Positions 1,063-19,980 of a stretch of 37,354 bases of DNA are shown one piece after another; positions within the stretch are counted from its first letter, which is position 1; each line of letters begins with the position of its first letter. The stretch lies in IMG/VR virus record IMGVR_UViG_3300042564_000114, positions 1 through 37,354 of that record; one strand, 5' to 3'. The stretch comes from a virus. The position numbers were made by a program, and so were the translations under genes. Under the pieces are notes generated by a model, which saw nothing but the letters and a program-made list of their open reading frames with translations, did no database searches and had not been told where the DNA came from.

Positions 1063-4000
1063 TCATTTCTTTTTGGATGCGATACGCATATCCTCGACAT
1101 CCTTGGCTATCTGGATGCGAAGCTGTTGCAGTCTTTCAATCTCAAGCCGCTTCTCTGCGCCGCTCATCTTGGGATCGTCTTCCACTATCCTCACCTGTTT
1201 GCCAATGGTTGACATCATGTTGGTTCCTTTGGTGTACAGCTTGGCTAGGGCGATCTTGTCGCTCTTCTCGATGAATGCTTCCTTGGCTTTCTCAAGCTGA
1301 CCTGAGTTCAGGAAGTGGCTTACATCTGATGTTGCGGTTGCGATGTCCTTAGCGTTCTCGTAGAACGATGTGACATAGCGAGACTGTGACTGAGGAACCG
1401 TCTTGACATAGTTGCCCACAACCAAGAAGTCATCAATACGCTCGTACCGTGACGATGCGCCATCCTTGAATGGGGTAGCCGCCACATTAGATGCCGTCTG
1501 AATTACAGTTCCGACCCAGCCAAGGTATCCCTTGAGCAAGTAGTCGTACTGGATTGGCGATAGCTGCGTGGACTGTGTGCTGATAGCCCCGCCGGTAGCC
1601 TTAGAAGCAAACTCAGCGAACAGACTGTTGACAGTTCCAAGCGCAACGGCAGCTCCAGAAGTTCCAGGGGAGACGCGGTTCTGGACAGATATTCTTTCCA
1701 TGCCCATGCTCTCGATAGGTCGGTCAGTGAATCCATCCTTGTTACGAGCGATGTCGTAGAGAGGGCGAATTGCCTGTGGGACTGGGTTGACGGCGAAGGT
1801 GTCGTGGAATACAGATAGCAGGCGCTTGGCAAACACCTTGCCCTCAACTTGAGAGTCAATCATCTGTTCTGTCATGCGCTCTGCTAGAGTGGCGATTGCG
1901 CCCATCTCGAATGGCTTGGGAATGCGAACAGCTTTATCTGTTCCGGGGAGCTTGAACCAGAAGAAGGCATCACGATCCCAATCTTCACGCTTCTTCCAGT
2001 CCTCATCGTCCTTCTGCGTCAGATACAAAATCATAGCAGCAGCCACGACTGCTCCAGTGACAGTGGCAAACTTTGCCGCTTTCTGTCTCTCGGTGTCCGA
2101 AGCCTTGCCTGTCAGCACCTGCATGGTGGGGTCGAGTCCATCACGCCCCAGCTTATACAAGCCCTGAAGTCTGGCGTTGAAGTACGGCAGAACCTGAGCC
2201 GCATAGCGTATGGCAGACCAGCTACCTTGTAAGCTGAAGTCCTGCAAATCTCTCGCAGCGTAGGATGCCTCAAGATGTGAGGCTCCCTTTGCACGGAGTT
2301 GTTGATACAGTGCAAGCCGGTTGGCATTCTCAGAGGCATCACTCACCTCGTCGTACTTGTCTTGGATCTTTCCAAAGAAAGATGCCACCTTCTCTGGTGT
2401 GTCCAAGATGTCAGCTTTGTTCACACCGGTCTTGAGTAGGCGCTTCACTGATGCGGACTGATCTCCGTCGAAGGCGTTGCCCATAGCGAACAAGCCGCCA
2501 CCAGCAAGAGCCTCGGCACGTTCTGTCTTGTAGGCTCTCCATCCCTGCATCACGTTGCCCATTGGGTTTCTGCTGAGTTCAGACAGACCTATAGACTGAA
2601 TCGAGTCTCGGATCAAGTTGTTGATCTTGAAGGTGGGAGACAAGGAGATGAAGCGAGTCAGCGTGGTTTTGAAGCCACGCATGATGTCCATGCCCCATCC
2701 GTAGCTGGGCATCTGAGCAACAGCAGACAGCGATGTCAGAAGGAACTCGTCGTCGATACGGTAGAAGGTTTCTTTGCCCTTCTCCATGACTTTGACAGCG
2801 CCCTTCTCTTGTCTTTCCAGCTTGGTCACGATGTCGCCCATCTGGGTAGCGGAAGCCAATGTCTCTACTGCCGCTTGGTTCTTCATCGAGGCTGACAGGA
2901 TATGCGTCCAATTCATCAGGACGTTCTCCATCAGGTCGTTCAATGGGCGCTCGCTACCCTTCAGTTTCTTGGACAGATACTGACCAACAGCTCCGGAACT
3001 TGTCTGGGCTGCCGACAGGCTGCCGTCATCTTCCATCTGTCGATAGAACGGGATGTACCAGATGTCTGCGGAGAAGCGTTTATACCCTTCGGCATCAATC
3101 AACCCGGTATCCTTGGCGACATCGAGGACAGATCTGTTCAGCTCATTCATGTTCTTCAGGGTCTCGGCGTAGATAGCGAGACGAGACTTACCATTCTTCA
3201 TAGTACCCATGTTCAGGCCACGCAAAGACTTGATGTCTTCTGGGCTGAAGAAACGCTCGCGCTCATCCTTTGACAGAGCTGCTGCACGGTTGGCTGCAAT
3301 CCAAAGCAGGAAGCGATCAACCTCACCGCCGACAGGATCGAGAATCTCTAACAATCCCTGCGTCCCCTTCTTCACGTTCAGTGCGCCATCATCATTGAAG
3401 ACTTGACCGTAGTGCAGGAGTGTGGAGACAGCTCCATCCTGAGAGCCAGCAGACATGCGGAGCATGAGATAGGCTTTCTGGCTGATGTCGCGGACAGATC
3501 TGAACTTGTCGAACGTACCTTGCACGATACGCATTGCGAAGTTTGGACGAAGGTGATCCAGTCTCTCCTTGATTGTGGGGGGAGAGTAGAAGCCTTTCTT
3601 TAGAGCACGTTCACGGGTGTCAGGGCTGACATCAGAGAACTGATCTTCGTAACGCTTGCGACTGAACATCGGGAAGCCATCATTGGCAACCTGTTCCTGT
3701 ATCTTTTCGGGGATGATGAACCCCATCTGTGGCTTCGCGCCCTTCGACTCAGCCTCATATCGAGCCATTCTTTGATTGTCGGCCTCTTGGTATGTGTCAA
3801 ACATTTTGCTGACGGGAGTTTCTACTTTATTATCAACCTCAACGAGTTGATACTTTCCACCCTCTTGCTGAACAACCTGAATTCTTTTCCCTTCGTATGG
3901 GTCTGCCGTAACCACATACATTGGACTGACGGTTGCTTTTGTAATTTCTTTTGCGACAGATGGGACGATTACATCGTAAAACTCACGCATACCAGCGCCA

Positions 4001-7000
4001 CCCATCGCAAGGTTGTCGCCACGGATTGTCTTTATATCCTTGAGATCTGGCTCCACCGCTGGATCGAACTCTTGATCGCCAACATCATTCTCCATAAGTG
4101 TAAGAATGTCTTTGCCGAATGTCGCAGAGATTTCTTTCTTTGACATATCGGCGTTTTTGATGTTTGCCCCGCCGAGAGAAATGGTGTTAACGTAAAAGCC
4201 CTTTTCTGTTGGTTGATATGTTATCTCCCGGACGAATTCGCTCAGCCTGTACCTTTGATTCTGTTGGTCTCCGGTAGTCCAAGCAACGCGATCAATGCCT
4301 TTGGTTTGAGCATAAGCAATAGCCCTCTTGAGAAGCAAGGAGACCCATGACTTTGTATCTTTAACGAATGGCGCTCGTGGGACTGCACCGCTTCCTTCAG
4401 ACTCGATGAACCTTTCAACCTCTTCGCGGCTTGGGAAGCCATCTTCAATCTCACCATTTGCTCGAACAATCTCCCACCCGCCATCAGTGGCTTGCCGTAT
4501 CTGCTGATTAGGAACATCAAATCCTTGCTCCCGACCTTCTTGCGCTCTTTGGCTCTGGATCTCCTCCAAGAACAAAACATCGTTACCGTCCGCATCCTTA
4601 CGCACATTTGTTCTCAGCCACCCAATGTGCTTACCATAGGCAACGTCACCAAAGTGAACGCTATCTTGATCTTTATATGGCTGGATGCTTGGATCTGTCA
4701 ATATGATTTCTGCATAGTCCATGCCATAGGGCAATGTCAGGCGCTCAGTGTTGTGCCTTGCCTTCAGCCTATCCTTTGCCCTGCCAAGAGATCTCTCATA
4801 GCCTCTAATGTGCTCACGGTTAAACACCGCCATCGAGGAGTTGTCCAATATCCACTGCTTAGCCTCCTCCATACTCATGGAGTCTGGATCTACTTTGTAG
4901 AGTTGTGGAAAGTCTTCCTCTAAATCATAAAAATCTGACCCGAACACTGCGTACTCAACATTATTTTTTTGCTCTTCTATTCGCTCTCGAACAAACTCTC
5001 TATAGTCCTCTTCTGTTGGGTCTTTGTATTCAGGTAAAGGGACAGATGGGTTATCAGTCAATATGATGTCGTTGAGCTTGACCTTGTTGCCTGCAATCCA
5101 GTTTAAGACGGTCTGCTTCTCGACCTTGCCTTCTTGCAGATCAAGCCACTCATTGATACCAGTCCACTCGATCTCAGCCTTCCTGATTCCAAGCTTTTCC
5201 TTATTCGAGTTGAGCCATGACTTCCACTGCTGGGCAGGCATAGATGTTTGCTTGACAGATTCAAAGCCACGCTCCATTGCAGAGTAGAAGGTCTCACCCT
5301 CTCTCTTGCGGCTGAACATCGGAGCCTTGGTGGTGTCTCCGCCTATCTCTATTTGATGCTCTCCGACCAATACGGCATAGCCCCTTTCAGATCCTTGCGG
5401 TGCGCTGTAGTAGCCATCAAAACCAGCTCTCAAGACAGCCCTCTCAAACGATGAGGAGATCTCTTCTTCTGTTGTGCCGCGAGCGCCTCTGGCTAGGCCA
5501 AGCGTATCGGCAACAGCATCGTAGATATTCTTGAGTTTGATTGTGTGAGCAACACTACCAACACCGGATTCTGGCTTGATGCCATAGCCAACATCCACAT
5601 AGGTGTATATGCGGTTTCTGATGTCGGCATTCGCTGGGTCTGTTAATCGAGACTTCTCTGCACCACGAAGGCCAGTCCCAAAGAATGCTGAGCTTAAAAC
5701 TCTCCGTGGTTCTTGGCTGAAGTGAACAGCTATTACCTCGATTGCCCCTTGCTTGGGGGTTCCGTACTCTGCGTCCGGTTCTCCCACAGAGATTTGGTTA
5801 GGTTGGAGTCTGCGTCCTGAGCGAGCAGCTCCTCTGGAGTCAATCCATTTATCGCGGATGGCGATGGCTTGCTCCGCAATGTCCGTAAGACGCTCACGCC
5901 TGCTCCTCCGAACATTTGCCCCTTCTCCACCTTGAAGTCCACTACCTTCGCCATATTCTGTCCCTTCTAAATAAGCTTCTCTGTTGTCAGGCCAGATAAA
6001 CTGGCTGTGGAAAGTTTGCGGCTGAGATACACGAATCTCTCCATCGTAGTCAAAAGACTCGACAGCGGATCTGATTGCCGCCCTGTACTCGTCATCAGTC
6101 AGCGTCTGCACATTGTCGTTATATGCGGAGAAGTTTCCGAATATCAACGCACCATCTCTCAATGTGTCGCTGTCTGCTTGTGGAACTCTATCAGAGATGT
6201 GCTGGCGTAGGTTGTCAAACTGAACCTCTGACATTCCAGACGGGATTTCAACTTTAACAAAACCAGCCTGATCTCCGGACGTTGTGTTGTTCTCGTCGTA
6301 AGCAACCATCGCCTTCTGATCTAACACGTAACCCATAACCTTGGCGAGAGTCTCCAACTGTTGAACAGACGCACCTGCTGGAGCATCAATCAATATGTTT
6401 GGGTTGACATCACCCTCATATCGACCGCTAGAGAATCTATAGGTAAACCCAGTCAGATCCAGTAGATTAAAAATCTGGGTCATCATCTTGTTGGCTAGGG
6501 CCTGAGTTGCGCGAGTCTTCTCCTCGACTGTCATCTCATTCCAGCGTGATGCAACCTCTTGGTCTGGGTTGGGAGCGACCTCGGCTAAAACTCCAGCAGA
6601 TCTTGTCGCTCTCTGTTGAGATGGTGCTGGCTTGCCGTACTTATCTTTCACGTACGCAACAGCAAGTTTGTAGTCACCTTCAAGATCATCAAATTCACCA
6701 GCCAAGGCTTTTTGCAGAACATCTTGATTGTCCGCATCTTCAAGATACCGAACTCTTCTGTGCCAAGGATAGTGAGCAGCAATGATTTGATTTGGCTGTA
6801 CGTCCTGAAGAACAAACGGGGCATCCCACTGATCTTTGGGAACAACAAACTCTAGCGTTGGCCTTGTCTCTACTGGGCCATAGAAAGGTGTCTCACCAGC
6901 GTAGATGGCTCTTGGCCCTTCAATACCCCTAGCGTATTTAATCGACAGGCCCTCCTTGGCGATCTTATCCAAGGACTCCGTATCTGTCTGATGGTATAGG

Positions 7001-10000
7001 CGAACATACCCATCTGGTATTGGTTGAGTGCCGAATTCCGCAGGAAGATCCATTCTCTTTTGAGAGAAGGATGGCAAACCTGTCGGCTTTGCTGGAGCTG
7101 TTGGCTGCTTCTGTTCAAAGTCCGCCAGAACGCTGACGATTGCCTGGCGTGCGGCGGCGACATCTGTCAACAGATTCTTGGAGTCCAGAGTCTGCTTGCT
7201 GCGGATCTTGTTCATTACTGAATCAAGGAAGTCCACAACAATTCTTGCGAGCTGCGTGAACATGCTTGGATTCTCATCGGCCATCATTTGCCAGAAGGAG
7301 GATTCACCGAATCTGTCTCCAACGATGTCGCCAATAGCTTCTTCCAGAATCAATGCTGGATCTTTCATGCCCTCTTTGTTGAGCTGCGCTCGATAGGCAT
7401 TCATGCCACCCTGATCCAGATAAGGCGACAGATGTTTTGTCAGTGCTGTATAAATTTCTTTATTACTGAACCGCAAAGCATGAACCATCTCATGGCCCAA
7501 GACCCGAATGTGTGGTCGGGTGCTGTTTACATTGATGAAGATTGTGTCTGATCCGTTGAGGACAGCGCCGTCTATGAAGTCAACACTTCCCTTCTCCACT
7601 GCAAAATATACGAGCTTCTTTCCGAACAGATCGGCAATGCGTTGCATGGAAGGGAGGCCGGGAATCTTTCCAGCAAGATTGCCGAGAGGTACTCTCGCTG
7701 CGGTAAAGCTGTCCGTGCTTCCTTGTCTTGCAAGGTATCCTCTGACATCCTTGTTGAGGTCGTCAACGGTTTTGAGTTTGCCATAAGAGAAGTCCCTTCC
7801 TGTTGTGGTTGTTTGCGGCGCTCTGCTTAGGCTGTACTTTGCGCCAGCACCAACACCAAGATTGCCTTCAACAATCCTCTTCATGCTGTTGATTGCGCCC
7901 ATGAGGTCGCCGTCATCAACCATCTTATTCAGCTTAACAACGTCCGCAAAGTCAAGGCCGCCGTCTTCGTCTGCTCTGTTAATGCGCTCCTTAACACGAG
8001 CCTGCATTACAGGGTCAACTGCTGGCTTTACTTCTTGCGGCTGCGCCCTGACTTCGACAGGCTGATTGCCACCGCCTGCTTCACCGCCGCCTGTTTGCTC
8101 TTCGGCTTTGACCCCCCGATCTTCCCCGACCGCTGGAACTTGTTCACCAGCTCCTTGACGTTGCTGCTCACCACCTTCTGTGACTTGCCTTGTTTGAGTG
8201 GCATCTGGTTCTCCCTGCTTGGTTAAGTATTCTTGCGCGGCGACAAGATCTTTTTGCAAGTCCGCAAGAGACTTGTTCTTTTGCTCAAGGCTTGCGCTCT
8301 TGTATTTCTTGTCAACAGCTTCCCGCTTCAACAACATCCTAGATGTTGAACCAGAAATCTGAGACATGAGGTTCTTTGCAAACAACGCACGTTTGTCAGG
8401 AGTTGCATTGTTGACATCAGCAACCGCATAACCGAGGTTGTTGATGAATGTGGTCAGTTGCTGAATAGCATCGTCAGCCGACTGCAAGACTGGGCCTATG
8501 TCCGCATTGTCTTTGTATTCGTTGTAGCGGCCTTGGTCTCTCTTGCTATCAGTAAAGTAAACCGACACGCCGCGCTTCTCTGTGACCTTCTGTACTCCAG
8601 CACCTTTAAGCGCCTTCAACTCAGCCAGCTTAGCTTCTCTGAAGTTGTTGTCTGTGATGCGGCTCTTACCGGCTACAGCAGTACGGATTCCGCTGATTAA
8701 GTTTTTGTCACCGCCTAGAGCCTCCAGCTCATTTGCTATCTCTGTGGCGCGAGCGCGAAGGGGAATCTGTTGTTGCTCTTCTTCTGGAGTGAGAGCAGCA
8801 ATAGCCGTCTTCTTGCCCTTGGTGGGCGTCACTGGGGCGGTAGGGGTAACGGTTGGCGCTACTACCGGAGCGGCGGCAGTTGTTACCGGAGCGGCAGGAG
8901 TTACTACCGGAGCTGCCGCAGGAGTTACCTCTGCTGGCTTCTTACGAGTCTCCACAAAATAGAACGTGCCGCCGCCTTCGGCTTTGGAGCGTTTACCCTG
9001 ACGGATTCGCGCCTCAAGTCCCTGTCCGACCAAGTTTGTTTGGGCGTAGCCACCGCTGCGCTGTCCTGTTTTTGCGTCTTTCGGGCCGAACAGAAAAGTC
9101 TCGGCAGCCTGGGGTGATGGGAATCTGTTCCCGACTGGGCCTTTGTCTGTTGTGATGCCGATCAATGGCTCAAAGCCTTGCTGTCTGGCAACCAAGTCTT
9201 CAGGAGACAGGGCGACCGTACCAGCCTGACCGCCTGCTGTCTCTGGCAGGATCACTGGCTGAGCTTCACCCTCTAGGGTGCGGGTCTCAAGATTGGGGGT
9301 TACGCTGGCTCGCTGTATGACGGGCTCGATTGCGCCCGTATCTCCGCCGACTGCGGTAGATGCTGTCTCGCCAAAAGCGGCAAGGACATCAGCCTCACGT
9401 TGCTTTCTGGTTTCAGCTCTGGCTTCAGGAGTTGGAGCCTCAAGGTCAACCAACATGCGCTGGGTAGCCAGTGCCTTGGTGACTACATTCTGGAATCTTG
9501 GATCGTCGCCAGACTCAATGCCGTTGGCCTGAAGGATTGGGCCAAGAGCTGGATCGTCGAACATCGAGTCGAACAGTTCCTGACGACCATCGTCGGATGT
9601 CATATCAGCCTGAGCTTGCTCCAGAATCTGTCGAACTCTGTCGGGGGATGTCTTGCCGCCACGGAAAGCGCCGACCGCAGCACCGATAGTGCCGCCGCCC
9701 AATCCACCCAAAGCAAAGGCGTTGATGTACTCGTTCATGGCATCTTCGCCAGTGAGATCTTTGCCTGCGCCGAAACGCTCAATGGCTGTCTGGAATAGTT
9801 CTTGACCACCCTCAATACCAACACCAGCCGCGCCGCCAATCAGCGCACGACCGGGGCGACCAGCGCCGGGGATGTTGATCTTGCCAGCCGCAACGCTCAA
9901 GCCAAGACGATCAACCGCCGCCTCAGACAGACCAGCAACAACGCCAGATCCAAAGATTCGGGCCAGATCGCCACCAGTCAGTTCGCGGCCTTCTTTTCCT

Positions 10001-10962
10001 GCCTGCTCTTCTGCCTCGCCATAAATGCCGCCAGTTGACTTGATGATGCCGGAGCCAACCAGAGCAGTACCAGCGCCAATGTTCTTGGCGACAGTCTTTG
10101 TAGCCTGCTTGAGCATCTGTTCCGTTGCAAACTCAGCGCCTTCTTTTTCAGCCAGCTTAGCGGCTTCCTTGGCGACCATGCCTTCGATCAGATTCTTGGC
10201 AACACCTTGAACGGCCTGCTTTCCAACAGCGCCAGCACCAGCACCAGCCAAAGCACCGGCAGGGCCAGCAGTAAGTCCACCGATGGCAGATCCAAGGGCG
10301 GATGTGGCGACCGTCTCGACGATGCTGCCGCCAAGATAACCAACGCCATACTGCGCCCAATCAACCAAAGCACCAAGATCGCCCTGCTTGGCCTTGTCCC
10401 AAGCCTTGGTCACATCGTCTGTGTCCTTGGCTGTTGCGCCGATCTCTTTCATTCGGCTGCCGTACTCTCTCAGGCCATAGTTCTTCAGCGAGGTCATGGC
10501 TCCGCCAGTGCCAAAGGCTTTCTCGCCAGCGGCTCCGGCAAAGCCAAGAGCGCCAAATGCTAAAGCTGGGGTCTGTGCCAGTGCTGTGCCGCCGCCTCGC
10601 ATGAAGTCGCCGGTATCTTCGGTTGGAGCTTTCTCAACTGGCGTAGTTGCTGGAGAAGACTTTATGCCCATCAGATCATTGACGCTGAACATCTCGCTGG
10701 GCTTTGCTGTCGCAGTCTCCGATGGAGGTGGTTGACGGACAGCAGATCCCATGAGATCGTCCAAAGAGAAAAGATTGGCCGAGCCAGTCTGTTGCATTGA
10801 AGCCGATGATGACGGGGTAGAGATGGCGGTTCTGGGTTTTACGTCCCCGCCGTAAGATCTAGGAAGAACCTCAGTTCTTAGAGCTTCATCTTTTGACAGA
10901 TAGAGAGAGTCATTTTCTCTGTCGATGTCCTCATCGCCAAATAACGAAAGACCTGTTGCCAT
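1063..10962 (-). CDS. Giant polyvalent protein (3299 aa): metallopeptidase, ADP-ribosyltransferase-like and LPD38-like domains
   Basis: At 9.9 kb this gene fills about a quarter of the window. By eye: tandem LFSLDDLMG/MFSVNDLMG motifs (64-99); hydrophobic Gly/Ala-rich region (about 125-430); Pro/Ala/Thr linker (about 678-713); coiled-coil region; HEMVH zinc motif at 1157-1161 with a later LEEAIGD, a gluzincin-like arrangement; an ART-like segment with RLYHQTDTESLDKIAKEGL (about 1315-1425); a second ART-like segment (about 1738-1875); a domain with FLEEIQSQ (about 1890-2430); and a long C-terminal region resembling LPD38 (about 2440-3299). This is the architecture of 'polyvalent proteins', thought to enter the host with phage DNA and counter defences. 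The ATG at 10962 follows AAAGAGG. Whether each enzyme domain is active is not established. Confidence 0.88.
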   Translation of the reverse strand: MATGLSLFGDEDIDRENDSLYLSKDEALRTEVLPRSYGGDVKPRTAISTPSSSASMQQTGSANLFSLDDLMGSAVRQPPPSETATAKPSEMFSVNDLMGIKSSPATTPVEKAPTEDTGDFMRGGGTALAQTPALAFGALGFAGAAGEKAFGTGGAMTSLKNYGLREYGSRMKEIGATAKDTDDVTKAWDKAKQGDLGALVDWAQYGVGYLGGSIVETVATSALGSAIGGLTAGPAGALAGAGAGAVGKQAVQGVAKNLIEGMVAKEAAKLAEKEGAEFATEQMLKQATKTVAKNIGAGTALVGSGIIKSTGGIYGEAEEQAGKEGRELTGGDLARIFGSGVVAGLSEAAVDRLGLSVAAGKINIPGAGRPGRALIGGAAGVGIEGGQELFQTAIERFGAGKDLTGEDAMNEYINAFALGGLGGGTIGAAVGAFRGGKTSPDRVRQILEQAQADMTSDDGRQELFDSMFDDPALGPILQANGIESGDDPRFQNVVTKALATQRMLVDLEAPTPEARAETRKQREADVLAAFGETASTAVGGDTGAIEPVIQRASVTPNLETRTLEGEAQPVILPETAGGQAGTVALSPEDLVARQQGFEPLIGITTDKGPVGNRFPSPQAAETFLFGPKDAKTGQRSGGYAQTNLVGQGLEARIRQGKRSKAEGGGTFYFVETRKKPAEVTPAAAPVVTPAAPVTTAAAPVVAPTVTPTAPVTPTKGKKTAIAALTPEEEQQQIPLRARATEIANELEALGGDKNLISGIRTAVAGKSRITDNNFREAKLAELKALKGAGVQKVTEKRGVSVYFTDSKRDQGRYNEYKDNADIGPVLQSADDAIQQLTTFINNLGYAVADVNNATPDKRALFAKNLMSQISGSTSRMLLKREAVDKKYKSASLEQKNKSLADLQKDLVAAQEYLTKQGEPDATQTRQVTEGGEQQRQGAGEQVPAVGEDRGVKAEEQTGGGEAGGGNQPVEVRAQPQEVKPAVDPVMQARVKERINRADEDGGLDFADVVKLNKMVDDGDLMGAINSMKRIVEGNLGVGAGAKYSLSRAPQTTTTGRDFSYGKLKTVDDLNKDVRGYLARQGSTDSFTAARVPLGNLAGKIPGLPSMQRIADLFGKKLVYFAVEKGSVDFIDGAVLNGSDTIFINVNSTRPHIRVLGHEMVHALRFSNKEIYTALTKHLSPYLDQGGMNAYRAQLNKEGMKDPALILEEAIGDIVGDRFGESSFWQMMADENPSMFTQLARIVVDFLDSVMNKIRSKQTLDSKNLLTDVAAARQAIVSVLADFEQKQPTAPAKPTGLPSFSQKRMDLPAEFGTQPIPDGYVRLYHQTDTESLDKIAKEGLSIKYARGIEGPRAIYAGETPFYGPVETRPTLEFVVPKDQWDAPFVLQDVQPNQIIAAHYPWHRRVRYLEDADNQDVLQKALAGEFDDLEGDYKLAVAYVKDKYGKPAPSQQRATRSAGVLAEVAPNPDQEVASRWNEMTVEEKTRATQALANKMMTQIFNLLDLTGFTYRFSSGRYEGDVNPNILIDAPAGASVQQLETLAKVMGYVLDQKAMVAYDENNTTSGDQAGFVKVEIPSGMSEVQFDNLRQHISDRVPQADSDTLRDGALIFGNFSAYNDNVQTLTDDEYRAAIRSAVESFDYDGEIRVSQPQTFHSQFIWPDNREAYLEGTEYGEGSGLQGGEGANVRRSRRERLTDIAEQAIAIRDKWIDSRGAARSGRRLQPNQISVGEPDAEYGTPKQGAIEVIAVHFSQEPRRVLSSAFFGTGLRGAEKSRLTDPANADIRNRIYTYVDVGYGIKPESGVGSVAHTIKLKNIYDAVADTLGLARGARGTTEEEISSSFERAVLRAGFDGYYSAPQGSERGYAVLVGEHQIEIGGDTTKAPMFSRKREGETFYSAMERGFESVKQTSMPAQQWKSWLNSNKEKLGIRKAEIEWTGINEWLDLQEGKVEKQTVLNWIAGNKVKLNDIILTDNPSVPLPEYKDPTEEDYREFVRERIEEQKNNVEYAVFGSDFYDLEEDFPQLYKVDPDSMSMEEAKQWILDNSSMAVFNREHIRGYERSLGRAKDRLKARHNTERLTLPYGMDYAEIILTDPSIQPYKDQDSVHFGDVAYGKHIGWLRTNVRKDADGNDVLFLEEIQSQRAQEGREQGFDVPNQQIRQATDGGWEIVRANGEIEDGFPSREEVERFIESEGSGAVPRAPFVKDTKSWVSLLLKRAIAYAQTKGIDRVAWTTGDQQNQRYRLSEFVREITYQPTEKGFYVNTISLGGANIKNADMSKKEISATFGKDILTLMENDVGDQEFDPAVEPDLKDIKTIRGDNLAMGGAGMREFYDVIVPSVAKEITKATVSPMYVVTADPYEGKRIQVVQQEGGKYQLVEVDNKVETPVSKMFDTYQEADNQRMARYEAESKGAKPQMGFIIPEKIQEQVANDGFPMFSRKRYEDQFSDVSPDTRERALKKGFYSPPTIKERLDHLRPNFAMRIVQGTFDKFRSVRDISQKAYLMLRMSAGSQDGAVSTLLHYGQVFNDDGALNVKKGTQGLLEILDPVGGEVDRFLLWIAANRAAALSKDERERFFSPEDIKSLRGLNMGTMKNGKSRLAIYAETLKNMNELNRSVLDVAKDTGLIDAEGYKRFSADIWYIPFYRQMEDDGSLSAAQTSSGAVGQYLSKKLKGSERPLNDLMENVLMNWTHILSASMKNQAAVETLASATQMGDIVTKLERQEKGAVKVMEKGKETFYRIDDEFLLTSLSAVAQMPSYGWGMDIMRGFKTTLTRFISLSPTFKINNLIRDSIQSIGLSELSRNPMGNVMQGWRAYKTERAEALAGGGLFAMGNAFDGDQSASVKRLLKTGVNKADILDTPEKVASFFGKIQDKYDEVSDASENANRLALYQQLRAKGASHLEASYAARDLQDFSLQGSWSAIRYAAQVLPYFNARLQGLYKLGRDGLDPTMQVLTGKASDTERQKAAKFATVTGAVVAAAMILYLTQKDDEDWKKREDWDRDAFFWFKLPGTDKAVRIPKPFEMGAIATLAERMTEQMIDSQVEGKVFAKRLLSVFHDTFAVNPVPQAIRPLYDIARNKDGFTDRPIESMGMERISVQNRVSPGTSGAAVALGTVNSLFAEFASKATGGAISTQSTQLSPIQYDYLLKGYLGWVGTVIQTASNVAATPFKDGASSRYERIDDFLVVGNYVKTVPQSQSRYVTSFYENAKDIATATSDVSHFLNSGQLEKAKEAFIEKSDKIALAKLYTKGTNMMSTIGKQVRIVEDDPKMSGAEKRLEIERLQQLRIQIAKDVEDMRIASKKK
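8826..8930 (-). repeat. Pro/Ala/Thr/Val-rich imperfect tandem repeat inside the giant gene
   Basis: The DNA shows imperfect tandem copies of GTTACTACCGGAGC-like units, encoding runs such as VTPAAAPVVTPAAP within a linker of about 35 residues. It separates the Gly/Ala-rich N-terminal part from the coiled-coil region. Low-complexity PA/PT linkers usually act as flexible, protease-accessible spacers. The near-identical units are candidates for copy-number change between relatives. Confidence 0.7.
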
Positions 10963-10973
10963 TGATTGCCTCT

Positions 10974-12278
10974 TTAATCAGCAAAGATTTGTACGCCGCC
11001 GTAGTCAAAATACGAACGCCCTGTTTTTGGATCAGACTTTCTCGCAGGCAGCTTGCCCGATGCGGCGGCCTTGGCAGCACCAATCAAAATCTGTGGATCA
11101 GTTTTTGGATTCAAAGAGGCCAGATTGACTGCGATATTTCTACCAACAGTATCATTTTGGATAGATAGTTTTGTCGCCTCGACATCTGGCCCAACACTCT
11201 CCTCTAGCTTGAGAACCCTGTCGGCGTTCGGGAAGCTCTTTGTGATGCTCTCTACCTTGGCCCTGACATCAGCGCCCTTGACTTGATCTTCTAGAGCAGC
11301 CTTTTGAGCGGAACGAAGATCTCTTGTTGCAATAGCACCTATGCGCTCGACACCAATCTTCTCTCTCTGAAGAGCAACATCTTCTTTTCGGTTGGCTGCT
11401 GCTATTGCAAGATCTTCTGTGCGGCGCTGAGATCCAATGTTCAGCTCAAGAACTTTAACTGGATCGAGTTGGTTCAAAGCTGACAACATTGATTGCTGAT
11501 TCAGTGGCCGCATCTCAACCTTGCCAGTCTTCTGGTCAACAACACTCAGGTTGTATGTGCCAGTTTTTGCATCGTATGTTGATTTGGTTGGATCAATGGA
11601 CTTGCCGTCATCAACAAACCCATACACCTTTTGGAGTGCAGGGATAACAGAGTCAGGTGGTGCGCCAGCCATAACAAGAGCAGCAGCCTTCTTGCGAACA
11701 AGTTCGTACCCCTGCTCCTTCATCTTCTCAACATCTTGGTCAACCATCATGGCTCGTCCGAAGTCACCTTTTGCGAGGAGAGACTTCTTCATCGCATCGC
11801 CAATTAACTGGTATTTCAGATTGTCAGCAGCGGTTTGATTTTTGTACAAGCCTTCGCCGCCTGACTTGAAGAGGTTCTCCTCTTGCGGAGTAACCGAAGC
11901 TGTCTGGGTCTCATCTACGCCTGTCCTACCAAGTCGTCGAGCCTCTGCCCTGTCGTAACTCATGCCAGCCTTCTGTTCAACAGATTGGGTGGCCTGCTGC
12001 TGCGCCTGAAGAGCGGCGGGGTCTGCGAGCGAAGCGAATTTACCAGTACCGCGCTTGGCATCTTCCAGAACAGAAAGAGCTTCTGCCTGAGCTTCACTAG
12101 CAATCTTGGCCTGCTCTTCTTCTCGCTGCGCCCTTGTTTGTTCCAAGGCAAAACGCTGGCGCTCTCTTTCGTCTCGCTCTTCTTCGCGCTTCTGCAAGGC
12201 ATCCATGCGAGACATCTCTTTGCTGGTCTTATATCCCTCGACCGCGCCTTTTACGAAGGCTCCTAATCCTGTTGCCAT
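10974..12278 (-). CDS. Coiled-coil virion protein, candidate internal/injected protein (434 aa)
   Basis: Starts MATGLGAFVKGAVEGYK, then a strongly charged heptad-rich helix (about residues 20-70: KREEERDERERQRFALEQTRAQREEEQAK), then mainly helical sequence and a small C-terminal beta-like end (RSYFDYGGVQIFAD). I do not recognise a family. Position between another Ala/Gly-rich protein and the giant polyvalent protein is where T7-like phages keep their internal virion (ejection) proteins. Two adjacent ATGs exist (12281 and 12278). The second is preferred because GGAG is six bases away and the upstream stop overlaps it as TGATG. It shares its MATGL N-terminus with the giant protein. Confidence 0.72.
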   Translation of the reverse strand: MATGLGAFVKGAVEGYKTSKEMSRMDALQKREEERDERERQRFALEQTRAQREEEQAKIASEAQAEALSVLEDAKRGTGKFASLADPAALQAQQQATQSVEQKAGMSYDRAEARRLGRTGVDETQTASVTPQEENLFKSGGEGLYKNQTAADNLKYQLIGDAMKKSLLAKGDFGRAMMVDQDVEKMKEQGYELVRKKAAALVMAGAPPDSVIPALQKVYGFVDDGKSIDPTKSTYDAKTGTYNLSVVDQKTGKVEMRPLNQQSMLSALNQLDPVKVLELNIGSQRRTEDLAIAAANRKEDVALQREKIGVERIGAIATRDLRSAQKAALEDQVKGADVRAKVESITKSFPNADRVLKLEESVGPDVEATKLSIQNDTVGRNIAVNLASLNPKTDPQILIGAAKAAASGKLPARKSDPKTGRSYFDYGGVQIFAD

Positions 12279-13438
12279 CATGCGCTCCTTTTATTCAGTG
12301 CTCTGCGTTTTTGAACAGCCGCTGGAGTGTGAGTCGCCTTGACCAACTTGTCGAGCTTCTTGACTCCGATTGCCTTTACTGTGTCTGCTGGGATAACGTA
12401 CTCTCCGTCTGACAGCATGGCTGGGATTTTGTCATCAACAGGCCCGCCCGGGCCAGTCACTTTGCCGCCGCGACCAAGGCGTTTGACAGATCCGCCGTCG
12501 GCTTTTCTGGTTGCGCCGAACAGAGATGCGCCTCCTGGCCCTCCAACATACATACCAGCAACACTTCCGAGAGCGCCAAACATATCTGATTGGTTTGCCA
12601 TCTGTGCGGTATATCCTTGCATCCTTGCGCCGAACTCTTGTCCGTAGATGTTTCCGGCTGTGCCGAAAGAAGAAGAAGCACCGCCCAGCATATTTCCAGT
12701 CTGTCCATAAGACTTGCCCATAAACTCGGCAGGAGCCATGTAGCTTCCTCCTGCCGACGTTCCTGCTGATGCGGCTGTGCTGGCCGCCGCTGTTGCATTT
12801 GATGCGAGACCACGGCCAAGGGCTGCGGCATCGTATAGGCGAGCGCGGCCCATCTCCTCAGAAGCAATCCTTGATTTAGTGGCTACCCCTGCGCGGGAAG
12901 CAGCCTCACCCTGACCAAGCTGAGCATTGATTGCTGCAAAGCGAGCAGAGTTGGGGTTGATTCCGTACTTTGCCATTGTGTCCAAAGCCTGTTGGCGCTG
13001 AACCTGATAGGCACTGGCTACGTCAGCCATCCCTTGAGAGGCCATCTCTTCCTGCTTGGCGGCAGTGTTGAACTCCTCCGCCTCTGAGACAAGTCTCTTC
13101 TCTAAAGGTCGAAATGTTTCTCGCTCGTAAGTTGCGTACTCTTCTGCTCGCTTTGCCGTGTCGGACATGATTTTTTTCTGAGCGGCAGCAATTTCCTTCA
13201 GGTCATCCTTGAAGGCAGCATACTGTTCTTTGGAGAAATTCAAATACTCCATAGCAACATCTTTTTGCATCTGACCAACTTCTTTTGCTGCTTCCGCCGA
13301 AGCAATCTGTCCGGGGTTTGGATCAGGCGCAGAAGGACTGTCTCCCATATCAAGGTGACAGATGTTCTTCCAGTTTGCTCCGTGCGTCTCGCGCAAAAGC
13401 TGAAGCTTATTTGCAAATTTTTCGTGTTTACTTTTCAT
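12278..13438 (-). CDS. Ala/Gly-rich virion protein with C-terminal DGGSV / GPGGPVDDKIPAMLSDGEYV domain
   Basis: A 386-residue protein: helical N-terminal half with Lys/Glu repeats (about 45-160), an Ala/Ser/Gly-rich middle resembling a membrane-interacting or flexible segment (about 195-300), and a C-terminal module with KADGGSVKRLGRGG then GPGGPVDDKIPAMLSDGEYV and PADTVKAIGVKKLDKLV. That C-terminal motif recurs in many phage virion proteins, often near tape-measure or ejection proteins. A structural or ejection role is therefore inferred. The ATG at 13438 has AAGGAA upstream; an internal Met at residue 31 lacks a ribosome site. It overlaps the previous gene by 11 bases and is coupled to the next gene. 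Confidence 0.75.
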   Translation of the reverse strand: MKSKHEKFANKLQLLRETHGANWKNICHLDMGDSPSAPDPNPGQIASAEAAKEVGQMQKDVAMEYLNFSKEQYAAFKDDLKEIAAAQKKIMSDTAKRAEEYATYERETFRPLEKRLVSEAEEFNTAAKQEEMASQGMADVASAYQVQRQQALDTMAKYGINPNSARFAAINAQLGQGEAASRAGVATKSRIASEEMGRARLYDAAALGRGLASNATAAASTAASAGTSAGGSYMAPAEFMGKSYGQTGNMLGGASSSFGTAGNIYGQEFGARMQGYTAQMANQSDMFGALGSVAGMYVGGPGGASLFGATRKADGGSVKRLGRGGKVTGPGGPVDDKIPAMLSDGEYVIPADTVKAIGVKKLDKLVKATHTPAAVQKRRALNKRSA

Positions 13439-13877
13439 TTTTCATTTCCTTCAGGAAGTTTTCCAGCCTATCCTTCTGCGACCGAAGTCGAAGCTCTGGG
13501 CCTACCTCGGCAGCCCAATCAGGGCCGCCTATGGCTGTAGCCAAATACAAAGATACGTCTGCGATTGAATACCTAGTTACGTGAGCAATCTGTTTGGCGT
13601 GATCGTCGCCATCTTGAAGCTTGTTGGCTACGTGCCAGTTCATGATCCCTATACTAAAGACCGCAGTGATGTCTAGCTGGTACTTTCTGTACGCAGGATT
13701 TCTTGGTATATCTACACAAGCCAACCAGAAGGCTTGATTGATGTCATCCTTGCTGACCGGCTTATCAGCATCAATCAGGTTGTCCCAAACATCAGCAATC
13801 TTTACGACAGACATTACAAGACCAACCGCATCCATGTCTCCGCGCATTGCAAACGTAAGGAACTCGATGTCATTCAT
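13428..13877 (-). CDS. Conserved-looking phage protein, 149 aa, helical
   Basis: Predominantly helical protein of unknown function. Recognisable stretches are DVWDNLIDADKPVSKDDINQAFWLA and IPRNPAYRKY, which I associate with a small cytoplasmic-type protein commonly encoded beside podoviral tail genes. No catalytic motif or membrane segment is visible. The C-terminus is highly charged (LENFLKEMKNEK). It overlaps genes on both sides (8 and 11 bases), so it is firmly inside the late operon. A virion or assembly-factor role is possible but not shown. Confidence 0.7.
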   Translation of the reverse strand: MNDIEFLTFAMRGDMDAVGLVMSVVKIADVWDNLIDADKPVSKDDINQAFWLACVDIPRNPAYRKYQLDITAVFSIGIMNWHVANKLQDGDDHAKQIAHVTRYSIADVSLYLATAIGGPDWAAEVGPELRLRSQKDRLENFLKEMKNEK

Positions 13878-14070
13878 TGAAGTTAAGCCTTGTGATGATC
13901 TCGTTAATCTTTGCTACAACCTGTGCGAGAGTTGCGTCTGTTGGCAACTGAGCTATGGCTCCCTCACGAACGCCAGTGATGATTTCTAGGTTCTCTTTCA
14001 TTGGCCTAAGTATTGTTGCTATAGAGGCATCTTGAATACTCAGGGTTGTTGGGATAGCTGGCTTCTTCAT
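13870..14070 (-). CDS. Small conserved-looking phage protein, 66 aa
   Basis: A short protein with a disordered start (MKKPAIPTTLSIQD) followed by two probable helices, including RPMKENLEIITGVREG and TLAQVVAKINEIITRLN, which could form a small coiled coil. I have no family for it. The ATG overlaps the stop of the upstream hub-like gene as ATGA, and its 3' end overlaps the next gene by eight bases. That tight packing argues it is real and translated with the tail genes; it may be a minor tail or assembly component. Confidence 0.65.
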   Translation of the reverse strand: MKKPAIPTTLSIQDASIATILRPMKENLEIITGVREGAIAQLPTDATLAQVVAKINEIITRLNFNE

Positions 14071-15878
14071 AACTGAGCAAGCTCTTTGGCTGTCTCTGCT
14101 ATCTTGAAGGCCCTTAGTGGGACATTGCCACTGAGCTTAAATTGCCATCTGTCGCTCTTGAAACCAGACGGAAGTCGGTATGTTGATCTGTCTGTGACAG
14201 ATATTGTTGACACTAATATTCCGTTGCAATAAATTTTTACTTGCAGACTTAAAGAGGAGACTACGCCGGGAATTTTTTGAAGGATTGACCCACCCAAAAC
14301 AATTTTTCCTATCTCAACACTACCAAGAGTAGATAAAAGATCAACGCCAGATGCAAAGACTGTTTGGTTGCTGGCAATGATCGCATCAACTTCGTCTTGT
14401 AGAGCGCCCAGCAAAGCATTGTCTTCAAAGGCTGCATCTATTTGAATGGCAGAAAAATTAACTGGTCTTGGCAATATGTAAAGCTTGGATGTCCAGTCGT
14501 AGGTTAGGAAGTTTAGTGGGTCAGACTCCCACCCGCAAACCACACCAGTGTATGCAATAAAAAGTTGAGCTGAAGTTGGGTCAATGAATACTGCTGTTGT
14601 GTAAATGTTCGTTGTGGTTAAAGCTGATGCAGCTTCATTCCTGTCCAGAATTAAACACTCCTGAACATCATTGATCTGATCTTCCCAAAACAGATAGTAA
14701 GCGCCATCAAGAACAGCACCAAGCATTGTTGATGGGTATCGTAATTGCCACTCGTCACGAGTGAACAATCCGTTTGTTGTTACCCCTGCAAAGCCCTGAG
14801 AGATCTTCACAATCCCGTTAGGTGAGGCATACATCACGCCTGTGTCGTCAGAGACGATTGACCTCTTGGATACGCAAGGCTCAAATAGAGGTATCTTTGC
14901 CTGAGACATCGAGGATGGCGTTGTTCCACTGATGATGAATGGATTACCTTTTGTTGCGACAACAACAGATTCTCCGAATGCACCAAGACCAACAACTGGG
15001 TACTCAACTGTTAGGGAGTAAATAACAGGCCATGCGTGAGGAACGTAAGGCTCGGAGAAGTAGATTTCATTTTCTCTGAATCCAACCAAGATACCGTTAG
15101 CCATCGCCACAATTCCAGAAAGATCAGAGGGTGGCGGGTTGTAGTTAGATGACTCAAGAGCGCCACCCAACTGAGTGGCTGTTTTTGTATCTGAGTACGA
15201 TGATGTGCCAATAGCTACATCAGCGACCTTCAGATATATGGTGGTGGACGTACCCGATACGGCTCGATAGATTCTCTTTGCTGTTATGTTGTAGTCGCCA
15301 GCAGGAGCCGCTGTTCCAAGGCCGGATACCGTAACAGTTCCGCCGGGCAGAACAGATAGAACAGACGACGCAGGAGATGGAGCAGACTCTTCTTCAATAG
15401 CTCCAAATGTTGAGATGTATGTGAACAGATAAACGCGACTCTCTGCTGTACCAGATCCACCAGAGGCAGATACTGTTGGAGCTGTCGTTGGAGCTGGAAC
15501 ACCCATCTCATAGTAGTCGCCGGGGAATGGTGCTGTGCCAGTCTCTGCGAGTGTTGAGTTTGTTTTCTTTGGAGTGCCGCTACCTGTGTAGTAGATTGGA
15601 TTCTCGCCAGTATCAAAGATAGGACTGGGAACAACATTGACATCTGTTGACCACGATAGCCAAAGATCATCCCCAGCCACATTCTTGTGTTTGTAGATTG
15701 ACTTAACGCTGGCAGCCAAGGATGCCGCGCCTTCAACAACACCAGGTTTATTCCACGCCCGAAGCTCTCCGCTGTATAGCTTTGTATTGATTGCCGAAGT
15801 AGCCTCATTGTCTTTCAACAAAGCAGAGCCTACCCTCGGCGCAATGCCAGCAAAAGCGGAGATCTTCAGTGCAGACAT
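14067..15878 (-). CDS. Tail hub/stopper-like structural protein, beta-rich (603 aa)
   Basis: Begins KISAFAGIAPRVGSALLKDNEATSAINTKLYSGELRAWNKPG, a pattern of a gene product that folds back on many small beta modules; the remaining sequence is beta-strand-rich with Gly/Ser/Thr turns and few charges. N-terminal layout and length are reminiscent of P22 gp10-like or T7 gp12-like proteins closing the head-tail channel, but I cannot prove homology by eye. It follows the lysis peptidase with only the TAAATG junction between them, and precedes ejection-type proteins, which fits a tail tip or hub. There is no clear Shine-Dalgarno; translation is likely helped by coupling. Confidence 0.68.
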   Translation of the reverse strand: MSALKISAFAGIAPRVGSALLKDNEATSAINTKLYSGELRAWNKPGVVEGAASLAASVKSIYKHKNVAGDDLWLSWSTDVNVVPSPIFDTGENPIYYTGSGTPKKTNSTLAETGTAPFPGDYYEMGVPAPTTAPTVSASGGSGTAESRVYLFTYISTFGAIEEESAPSPASSVLSVLPGGTVTVSGLGTAAPAGDYNITAKRIYRAVSGTSTTIYLKVADVAIGTSSYSDTKTATQLGGALESSNYNPPPSDLSGIVAMANGILVGFRENEIYFSEPYVPHAWPVIYSLTVEYPVVGLGAFGESVVVATKGNPFIISGTTPSSMSQAKIPLFEPCVSKRSIVSDDTGVMYASPNGIVKISQGFAGVTTNGLFTRDEWQLRYPSTMLGAVLDGAYYLFWEDQINDVQECLILDRNEAASALTTTNIYTTAVFIDPTSAQLFIAYTGVVCGWESDPLNFLTYDWTSKLYILPRPVNFSAIQIDAAFEDNALLGALQDEVDAIIASNQTVFASGVDLLSTLGSVEIGKIVLGGSILQKIPGVVSSLSLQVKIYCNGILVSTISVTDRSTYRLPSGFKSDRWQFKLSGNVPLRAFKIAETAKELAQL

Positions 15879-16346
15879 TTAAGCAACCAATCCATTCAAG
15901 TAGGTCGTTTTCCCGGCAACCTTGGTGGCAGTCAACTCTTGCTTCTTCAGGTTGTTCGGATCGTAACTGACATGTACCCAGCCAGAATCAGGAATACCCG
16001 GAGTGTAGAACTCAAGAATCAACTGCGTATATTCGAGATTATCCATGATCCACTGCGCTAAGTCAGCATTTGCTACGCCGGGAATCTCAATATCGGCTGC
16101 CATCCCACGGCAATGGTCTGAGGTTTTTGACCCTCCCACTGCTGCATTTGACTCAGGACTGCGGAAGGCTGAGTTCACCTTGACCCCTTTGCCGTAGTGC
16201 TCACGGACAGGTTGTAATACTTTTTCGCACAAAAGGCGCAGATTCTCTGTTGCCTCGTCGTCGGGGGTGTTGTCGAATCCCATACGCATGGCTGTCTCGG
16301 ATTTGCACATTTCGTGCAGGCTGAAGTTTGCTGTCAGTTGGGTCAT
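15879..16346 (-). CDS. Endolysin: M15-type zinc D-Ala-D-Ala carboxypeptidase/endopeptidase
   Basis: A 155-residue peptidoglycan peptidase of the M15 family (Peptidase_M15_3-like). The zinc site is visible: SDHCRGMAADIE gives His78 and Asp85, and GWVHVSY gives His125. The preceding AFRSPESNAAVGGSKTSDH block is the typical substrate-side motif. The N-terminal FSLHEMCKSETAMRMGFDN is the helix usual in phage members. No signal peptide is present, so it would need a holin to reach the wall. The start overlaps the Rz stop as ATGA; it is the last gene of the lysis cassette, directly before tail genes. Confidence 0.93.
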   Translation of the reverse strand: MTQLTANFSLHEMCKSETAMRMGFDNTPDDEATENLRLLCEKVLQPVREHYGKGVKVNSAFRSPESNAAVGGSKTSDHCRGMAADIEIPGVANADLAQWIMDNLEYTQLILEFYTPGIPDSGWVHVSYDPNNLKKQELTATKVAGKTTYLNGLVA

Positions 16347-16825
16347 GGTTTACTCCTTAAGGTTTGGTAGACGGTGTTGTAGGCATCGATGCAGGCGTTG
16401 AGCTGTCTGGTGTTGGCATCTCCTTGGTCGGTAATGGCGACAAGAGATTGAGCAGTCGTTGCGTCAAGTTCGCCTCCTGTTTGAACGCTATCTCCGGCGG
16501 GAGGGGTGGGATCTCCGGCGGTTTGTACGGGGCAGACGGGGCTTTTGACAGGAATCCGCAGCTTGAGACTGCCAGAGGCAATAGCAGCATCACGCTCCTT
16601 TGCAGCAATTTTTGCATCGTAGTTGGCCTTTTGAAGTTTGGTTGCTTGGGTGGTCACAGCAGAGATGAGAGCCTGCTCTTTTGCCCTTGCTTGGGCATTA
16701 AGCTCGGCGATCTCTAACTGCTGTCTTGTAACCTCATCATGCTGGCCCTTGTAGTACCCGCCGCCTGCGGCAGACAGAATAGCCAGCAAGATTCCCAGCA
16801 TGACGTAGGGATTGAATATGCTCAT
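16343..16825 (-). CDS. Rz: Rz-like inner-membrane spanin (i-spanin)
   Basis: A 160-residue protein with one N-terminal transmembrane segment (YVMLGILLAILSAAGGGYY, about residues 7-26), then a periplasmic alpha-helical, Gln/Ala/Lys-rich coiled coil (about 27-85), a Cys-Pro segment and a short C-terminal helix. This is the standard i-spanin plan: it joins the outer-membrane Rz1 lipoprotein to fuse the two membranes in the last step of Gram-negative lysis. A proline-rich lipoprotein gene is wholly nested in it in another frame. It sits between the holin candidate and the M15 lysin, with ATGA overlaps at both ends. Confidence 0.9.
   Translation of the reverse strand: MSIFNPYVMLGILLAILSAAGGGYYKGQHDEVTRQQLEIAELNAQARAKEQALISAVTTQATKLQKANYDAKIAAKERDAAIASGSLKLRIPVKSPVCPVQTAGDPTPPAGDSVQTGGELDATTAQSLVAITDQGDANTRQLNACIDAYNTVYQTLRSKP
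16357..16617 (-). CDS. Rz1: Rz1-like outer-membrane lipoprotein spanin, nested in Rz
   Basis: An 86-residue protein encoded entirely inside Rz in a different frame. It has a basic start (MQKLLQRS), a hydrophobic stretch and a lipobox ending SSC at about residue 20, and then a proline-rich mature part (PYKPPEIPPLPPEI and a Pro/Ser/Thr C-terminus). This combination of lipobox, proline richness and nesting defines o-spanins. ATG 16617 gives a proper basic signal peptide, but its ribosome site (AAAGG, nine bases away) is weak. An internal ATG at 16590 has a strong AAAGGAG yet would lose the basic n-region, so the exact start is uncertain. It ends 14 bases before Rz ends. Confidence 0.87.
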   Translation of the reverse strand: MQKLLQRSVMLLLPLAVSSCGFLSKAPSAPYKPPEIPPLPPEIAFKQEANLTQRLLNLLSPLPTKEMPTPDSSTPASMPTTPSTKP

Positions 16826-19029: not shown

Positions 19030-19980
19030 TTAAGATACGTTTCCTTGCCTTGTTCCTGTAGCAGGCCAAGTTACAAATGGGTTTCCAACAATATAGGAGC
19101 CAGTGCCGCCACCGCCACCGCCCGGTTGATAACCCCCCCCGGGAGCAGACCCACTAGCTGCGGCTCCTGCGGCTCCTGCGGCTCCCCTACCTCCACCAGC
19201 ACCACCACCACCTGCTGCTCGTGTAGGGCCAAGAACCCTAGGGCTGCCACCTGCTCCGCCACTAGAAGATGACCCGGGAGAGCCGGGGTTTCCCGGTAGC
19301 GATTGCGGACCTGGGACTTGTACGTTGTAAGCGGAACCTCCTCCACCTCCACCGCCATTATTTGTTCCTGCACCACCACCACCGCCGCCGCCACCTGCAT
19401 AGACTGAAAAACCCGGTTTTTGGTCATCTTTCGAATTAGAGCCACCGCCGCCACCACCGCCGCCACCCGATGCAATAGTGCCATTATTGGTTATAACAGT
19501 AGGTCGGTTAACATAGATGGCGTTGCCGCCACCACCACCACCACTGCCCGGTGTAGAAGTACCCTCAGGTCTATTCGCATTACCGCCACTACCACCGTTG
19601 CCGCCCATACCTTGGATTACACCGTTGTTGATAATCGTTACAGTGTCTCCGGGATTAAAGGCATTTGGCACAAGCATGGCATACGAGCCAGTAGATGAGC
19701 TTCCAACAGTTCCGGGAACAGTTACAGTTATGTCTGAAGTACCGGGAGAGTATGTTGGCCCTCTGTTGGAGTACACATCGTAATTGTTGCCTGACGCTGT
19801 CAATGAAATAGTAACTCTGTTTGACTTTCCATAAAAGTTTCCAAGAGAAATTGTTCCCGATGGAATGCCAGCCAAAGTTCGATATGAAGCTTGGTTAATA
19901 TTGGCAGTAGTTGTCCCAGGCTGTCCAAGCTCTACGTTAATAGCATTAAATGATATTGCGCCTGATGCTGGAAGCGTCAT
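19030..19980 (-). CDS. Gly-rich receptor-binding tail adhesin (316 aa)
   Basis: The N-terminus MTLPASGAISFNAINVELGQPG... IPSGTISLGNFYGKS is a widespread phage tail attachment segment, probably docking to the tail. After a beta-rich middle (about 55-115) the protein becomes extremely glycine-rich, with runs of seven to nine Gly broken by short polar loops (NNGTIAS, NSKDDQKPGFSVYAG, TNNGG). Polyglycine stretches of this sort form stacked polyproline-II-type helices in the phage S16/T4-type gp38 adhesins, where the loops between them touch the receptor. A collagen-like VPGPQSLPGNPGSPG segment is also present. It is probably the specificity determinant. Confidence 0.82.
   Translation of the reverse strand: MTLPASGAISFNAINVELGQPGTTTANINQASYRTLAGIPSGTISLGNFYGKSNRVTISLTASGNNYDVYSNRGPTYSPGTSDITVTVPGTVGSSSTGSYAMLVPNAFNPGDTVTIINNGVIQGMGGNGGSGGNANRPEGTSTPGSGGGGGGNAIYVNRPTVITNNGTIASGGGGGGGGGSNSKDDQKPGFSVYAGGGGGGGGAGTNNGGGGGGGSAYNVQVPGPQSLPGNPGSPGSSSSGGAGGSPRVLGPTRAAGGGGAGGGRGAAGAAGAAASGSAPGGGYQPGGGGGGTGSYIVGNPFVTWPATGTRQGNVS
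19090..19630 (-). repeat. Polyglycine-coding low-complexity tract in the adhesin gene
   Basis: On the plus strand this is a long series of CCACCACCACCGCC-like runs, encoding glycine blocks on the minus strand. The blocks vary in length and are separated by non-repeat loops. Such tracts are prone to slippage or recombination, which would change adhesin loop spacing without frameshift when three-base units change. Confidence 0.75.

Follow-up and report, generated by a model that had tools for sequence, protein, structure and literature searches.

Would a giant phage protein that travels as one chain be cut into separate effectors and, if so, at which sites and by which enzyme? The question is raised by the last gene of the window, by which we mean the whole 37,354-base viral record IMGVR_UViG_3300042564_000114 (IMG/VR), positions 1 to 37,354. 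The minus strand of the window carries portal, major head protein, tail fibre and lysis genes, together with the following two features.

1063-10962, minus strand: giant polyvalent-type virion protein, a single open reading frame of 3,299 residues (LPD38 by Pfam, E=3e-33; PHROG 18222, E=1e-183).
1066-3651, minus strand: C-terminal LPD38 core, residues 2438-3299 (LPD38 Pfam match at 2986-3167; found at 47 viral loci).

The 3,299-residue multidomain chain shares with polyvalent proteins an LPD-type domain (LPD38), and it combines a HEMVH peptidase with modules that are mosaic between relatives, some of which bear ART labels unconfirmed by Pfam. A homologous giant protein, JC1 gp69, was detected in virions with 51 peptides (PMC9144972). 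The window protein is probably injected into bacteria by the phage.

Four virion-type genes separate the giant gene from the endolysin and spanin genes (window 1063-16825), and in the named phages PTXU04, CF418P1, F116 and Y11 the giant gene adjoins lysis genes (loci L371, L372, L374, L376 and L378). Elsewhere in the window, a match to the phage tail fibre adhesin Gp38 family at 19030-19980, with tail fibre genes nearby, barely exceeded the cut-off, and a 371-residue reading frame amid the tail fibre region (20202-21317) matched the PHROGs for ferrochelatase and 2OG-Fe(II) oxygenase, its name and role being doubtful.

The original prediction held that a short FSRKR-like string punctuates the domain boundaries of the giant protein, and the four strings on which it relied were all found at the residues given for them.

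7822-7839, minus strand: linker motif 1, KYSLSR, residues 1042-1047, before the metallopeptidase; homologues keep AKYSLSR or A[KR]FSM[SG][RK] (pLDDT about 30).
7054-7074, minus strand: linker motif 2, PSFSQKR, residues 1297-1303, after the metallopeptidase; homologues have PAFSQK[KR] or, if the next module differs, PMFSRK or IQFSTKK.
5302-5322, minus strand: linker motif 3, PMFSRKR, residues 1881-1887, with homology breakpoints at 1880-1883.
3652-3672, minus strand: linker motif 4, PMFSRKR, residues 2431-2437; most homologues in which both adjoining modules are present carry a string of the type P[ML]F[SRK]R[KRHD], and PMFRAREYE and PTFRLRDYE occur as variants.

In 20,000 composition shuffles, FS.KR occurred on average 0.026 times, compared with three times in the giant protein, and P.FS.KR, also observed three times, was expected 0.001 times; FS.KR was absent from the remaining 7,891 residues encoded by the window genes. 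The strict motif is not a chance occurrence, and chance, composition and GC content were rejected as explanations by these shuffles and by the GC strata described below. The degenerate pattern [FY]S.[KR] barely exceeded chance in the giant protein (4 versus 1.6, P = 0.08); one of its four matches, RFSNK at residue 1165, lies inside the peptidase domain, and KYSLSR itself falls outside the pattern. KYSLSR is a looser relative of the strict motif and weak when taken alone; we group it with the others because close homologues keep A[KR][YF]S[LM][SG][RK]. The two PMFSRKR copies differ by synonymous changes only, and the serine of PSFSQKR is drawn from the TCN codon family, which argues that the string is maintained as protein sequence. 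The sequences flanking the two PMFSRKR copies are unrelated. Recent DNA duplication as the origin of the motif was not supported by the codon comparisons.

Between the motifs lie the following domains and modules.

7108-7779, minus strand: HExxH zincin-like metallopeptidase (MPTase) domain, about residues 1062-1285, from alignment A1 and AlphaFold2 (no Pfam match above cut-off).
7480-7494, minus strand: HEMVH active-site motif, residues 1157-1161.
6625-7053, minus strand: module "ART-like segment 1", residues 1304-1446; the homology block ends at 1443-1446 and is missing from some homologues, and the ART label has no Pfam support.
5323-6624, minus strand: module 1447-1880, containing "ART-like segment 2"; no homologue aligned, and no motif on its N side.
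3673-5301, minus strand: module 1888-2430, retained across the wider family (Pfam gave no match above cut-off).

The earlier domain labels thus stood for LPD38, which Pfam confirmed, but neither the HEMVH domain nor either of the ART-like segments matched Pfam above cut-off, and their names derive from sequence features. For the peptidase, AlphaFold prediction of residues 1030-1312 (eight sequences) folded about residues 1062-1285 into a domain in which a helix and then three strands precede the HExxH helix; motifs 1 and 2 lie on either side of it, in segments predicted to be disordered (pLDDT 25-35). HE.VH was invariant in alignment A1 and ILEEAI(G/A)D was conserved. An HExxH helix following a beta sheet, with a conserved acidic ILEEAI(G/A)D downstream as a putative source of a metal ligand, is the arrangement of a zincin-like MPTase. 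Foldseek with the model of the window-clade peptidase gave no usable match, AlphaFold did not dock the motif into the peptidase active site with confidence, and no peptidase of the window clade was found in the scanned cellular genome contigs.

The claim that each motif sits at a junction was confirmed. Motifs 1 and 2 lie in the disordered flanks of a folded domain, and BLAST breakpoints between the giant protein and its viral homologues fall at 1282-1303 and 1880-1883; some seams, however, have no motif. None was found from residue 1446 to about 1742 or within residues 1-1041. Module 1447-1880, which lacks a counterpart among the giant homologues compared, is probably an insertion, and since it has no N-side motif, ART-like segment 1 and this module would remain joined after cleavage.

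In close homologues, the modules between the motifs are swapped and the motif is retained at the seam. One arrangement has PSFSQKR, ART-like segment 1 and then PTMFSRKPEGETF; in another, the peptidase leads directly to PSPMFSRKPEGE or to IQFSTKKEGTE. Homologues that are ~55% identical in the C-terminal part mostly carry another peptidase clade, HE[IVA]AGH[FY]GL (hereafter the FR clade), in which [FY]R[TV] precedes the peptidase and the 2431 site reads PMFRR[KHD]DYE in most cases. Among 43 non-redundant relatives of this clade, the boundary between linker and peptidase had [FY] in 42 and R in 41, with Q in 2, and this [FY]R island carried about 4 bits, compared with at most 1.9 bits per upstream linker column. 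A second [FY]R followed just after the peptidase in about 27 of the 43 (counted after matches inside the next domain had been removed by eye) versus 16% of random background windows. Structure comparison of an FR-clade peptidase placed zincins (lethal factor domain, MATCAP and M61) among the best matches, none of them significant. In a third clade, HE[AST][LI]HAMK, many members have PSFRAEV ahead of the peptidase, and one has GDFRALV after the peptidase and NPDIRAEVPS after an ART domain. Distant homologues, in short, differ from the window protein in MPTase clade and in motif ([FY]R[TV], [FI]RAE). A homologue whose window-clade peptidase is divergent (L018) has LKR, SLRR and FKRR.

In near homologues the motif is conserved between domains and kept across module swaps. 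Distant homologues retain the 1891-2430 domain but have no motif where it begins, an outcome that the original prediction had named as counting against it; this is so in the FR clade, where module 1891 is present and the junction before it is bare. FSRKR as a conserved unit did not survive the comparison, and as a universal site it was ruled out by the other letters found in distant homologues and in other polyvalent proteins. What is conserved is a lineage-specific short motif, an aromatic residue or N/K followed by S, Q, R or K.

We examined the generality of this pattern in viral proteins collected by anchors that ignored the motif. Across entire proteins, disorder-based motif enrichment was weak ([FY]S.[RK] 1.5-fold in S-type proteins and 0.7-0.85 in others) and a crude disorder scale did not sharpen it, after which anchored junctions were adopted. 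Two scans with DNA patterns that encode conserved stretches of the ART-PolyVal domain yielded 215 non-redundant proteins, in which the residues after the ART end, NP[DN]I, fall into the classes R[FY]S, [LY][FYNKHE]Q, RFR/RYR and RFK/RYK, with rarer forms such as RYMPP. In 80 non-redundant, non-tandem ART-domain proteins, the linkers before and after the ART domain resembled each other far more than permuted pairs did (k = 4; 11.35 versus 8.61 ± 0.33; z = 8.2, 0/20,000), and the true N-side window reached a median percentile of 0.85 against random windows of the same protein (p = 6e-8). The N- and C-side classes agreed in 39 of 69 proteins, compared with 24.2 ± 3.1 expected (1/20,000), in a set from which every protein with any trace of an upstream ART end, a possible ART duplication, had been left out. 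Codon identity at matched residues was near the codon-usage expectation (51/92 versus 38.3; for S/R/L, 13/38 versus 10.9). Neither random windows of the same protein nor codon identity accounts for the match between the two sides. The standalone ART of Dickeya phage JA13 (225 residues) has no motif, which agrees with the proposal developed below (n = 1).

In the Q class (L266, L211, L166 and L248), the ART end, the motif and the peptidase start are almost fused, as NPNIL[NEHK]Q..RG.F, and from this arrangement the Q-class peptidase may begin directly after its own putative cut site.

The class of the motif, defined by the residue after the aromatic, followed the class of the peptidase. HExxH was present in the same chain in 26 of 30 complete ART proteins, and 63 non-redundant proteins had both an ART end and one HExxH class. 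The gamma peptidase (HE.GHFFLE-like) occurred with the Q motif in 27 of 30 cases and the alpha peptidase (HExxH[AS][LIMV][KR], the window type) with the S motif in 9 of 10; the beta peptidase occurred mainly with S, often FSR, or with R. The MI between motif class and peptidase class, both patterns having been defined after data inspection, was 0.46, compared with a null maximum of 0.22. It was 0.41 (null maximum 0.29) for ART ends without a peptidase within 160 residues downstream, and the association was present in all three GC strata. This covariation is a correlation: GC strata and redundancy filters remove the effect of phage lineage only partly, and common descent within a phage lineage could have passed on both peptidase class and motif.

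Motif pairs could also be read in named phages. F116 gp60 has AFSRT before the ART domain and LFSRS after it; USP_18 has LFSRD and RFSRS around its ART domain; Shewanella phage Y11 has LFSRM, RYSQS and KFSRA; in BcepIL02 gp70, KFSVAPD precedes LPD3 and RFSVGGQ follows the peptidase; and in Aeromonas phage phiARM81mr, IRFSKQ, KKFSQE and IKMSQA surround the peptidase. Achromobacter phage CF418P1 and Escherichia phage PTXU04, peptidase-bearing homologues in the LPD38 region, showed no clear motif pair and are real exceptions, and in Limnohabitans phage DC33 no pair was readable. The crAss-like cr130_1 was excluded because of a frame with 31 stops in table 11. These in-frame stops in gp80 (L379), with a tRNA-Gln at the locus, are consistent with stop reassignment, and the protein has an ART-type match and HELLH.

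The motif lies in exposed linkers, is repeated within the chain, is common to unrelated domain borders and switches with the peptidase clade, and for these reasons we read it as a protease site. As in self-processing polyproteins, sites repeated at domain boundaries covary with an embedded protease, although the latter is a correlation. We consider it likely that the tags are processing sites at which the protein's own zincin-like HExxH MPTase would cut the polyprotein into effectors, enzyme specificity and site changing together. The giant polyprotein would go with the virion and enter the host with the DNA, and its metallopeptidase would recognise the short linear motif in flexible linkers and cut there, in cis or in trans, either during head assembly or after injection. 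Cleavage would turn the peptidase, the ART-like portion, the 1888-2430 portion and the LPD38 core into free-standing proteins, the predicted fragments being 1 to about 1044, about 1045-1300, 1301-1884, 1885-2434 and 2435-3299. In other lineages, peptidase clade and motif would switch jointly (FS-x-[KR], FR-[TV], [x]Q, RAE), and new modules could be inserted provided that the junction keeps the current motif. We also lean, if only slightly, towards an evolvable cleavage code, in which each lineage would have one short motif matched to its own zincin, a motif-flanked module would be a separable injected effector, and the junction motifs would follow when the peptidase is exchanged. Of the two enzymes originally suggested for the site, the internal metallopeptidase is the better supported, with a motif that is kept across swaps, occurs at both domain ends and follows the peptidase clade; a host protease explains the covariation poorly. 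The original interpretation thus has partial support.

MPTase processing of polyvalent proteins had already been proposed by Iyer et al. 2017, citing P1 DdrB (PMC5512222). The same paper reports that N4 vRNAP, with its MPTase domain, ArdC and TraC1 are packaged or transferred uncut, which counts against self-processing. In the literature searched, with subscription journals largely outside its coverage, we found no description of a repeated linker or cleavage motif or of its covariation, and no cleavage data. What the sequences add here is the repeated linker motif and its covariation with the peptidase, i.e., a concrete candidate site for MPTase processing.

Three other readings bear on the same observations. 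Another protease, from the phage prohead or the host, might cut the tags, leaving the internal MPTase to act as an effector against host proteins. Packaged internal proteins are indeed substrates of T4-type prohead proteases, processing is believed to occur in P1 DarA (PMC9024508), and for some MPTases Iyer et al. name a role as effector (PMC5512222). Nevertheless, the class of a motif tracks that of the peptidase with which it shares a chain, no prohead-protease PHROG match was found among the window structural genes searched, and FS.KR does not recur in other window proteins, so that we regard this reading as unlikely. Yet less probable, and distinctly unlikely in our judgement, is that the tags are docking or packaging signals that organise the chain by binding a partner, be it the portal, a scaffold, or the peptidase or LPD core acting as a non-cleaving clamp. 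AlphaFold2 placed a short strand at the N-side LFR of the FR clade (residues 10-12, pLDDT below 50), and P1 DarB has a capsid-localisation signal (PMC9024508), but a packaging signal need not be present at every junction or depend on peptidase class. Non-cleaving docking to the peptidase would yield the same covariation and is the main remaining alternative.

The tags might instead be recombination joints, short repeats left by the insertion of domain cassettes and devoid of protein function. Homology breakpoints do coincide with the motif, and some N/C pairs have 4-6 residues in common (SNIPP, SRPEG, FQPAPP). Against this stand the codons of matched residues, which agree little beyond the codon-usage prediction, the synonymous differences between the PMFSRKR copies, the other serine codon family of PSFSQKR, and an [FY]R island conserved over 43 diverged proteins; we find such an origin very unlikely.

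Processing at the linker motifs by the internal peptidase, as favoured here, can be set beside known systems. The giant protein resembles the polyvalent proteins of Iyer et al. 2017 in its size and multiple domains, LPD38, HExxH zincin-like domain, mosaic modules and structural-gene neighbourhood; the repeated linker motif and its covariation with peptidase clade are absent from the passages of that account consulted (PMC5512222). It shares an LPD38 C-terminus and an HExxH domain with the DarB-like giant protein of Bcep22-like podoviruses (BcepIL02 gp70 and JC1 gp69), which has the motif pair KFSV/RFSV; there the motif is shorter, and SLT, methylase, helicase and LPD3 domains replace the ART-like modules. 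P1 DdrB and DarA are likewise virion-packaged anti-restriction proteins, and DdrB, with its C-terminal MPTase, is reported to be processed before packaging, its cleavage site being unmapped in the text consulted (PMC5512222); the end of DarA could not be sequenced (PMC9024508). The likeness to RNA-virus polyproteins, also drawn by Iyer et al. (PMC5512222), lies in one chain with its own protease and repeated sites at domain boundaries, but the proteins and proteases are unrelated and the phage product would be an early effector set rather than a whole proteome.

Whether and how polyvalent proteins separate after delivery has so far been an open guess, and a predictable site makes a proteomic test on existing phages direct. 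With such a site, the limits of fragments and domains can be read off the sequences of many giant phage proteins that lack annotation, and a set of related proteases that differ in the short motif they recognise could be obtained. If true, self-processing at these sites would explain the free exchange of modules among such proteins.
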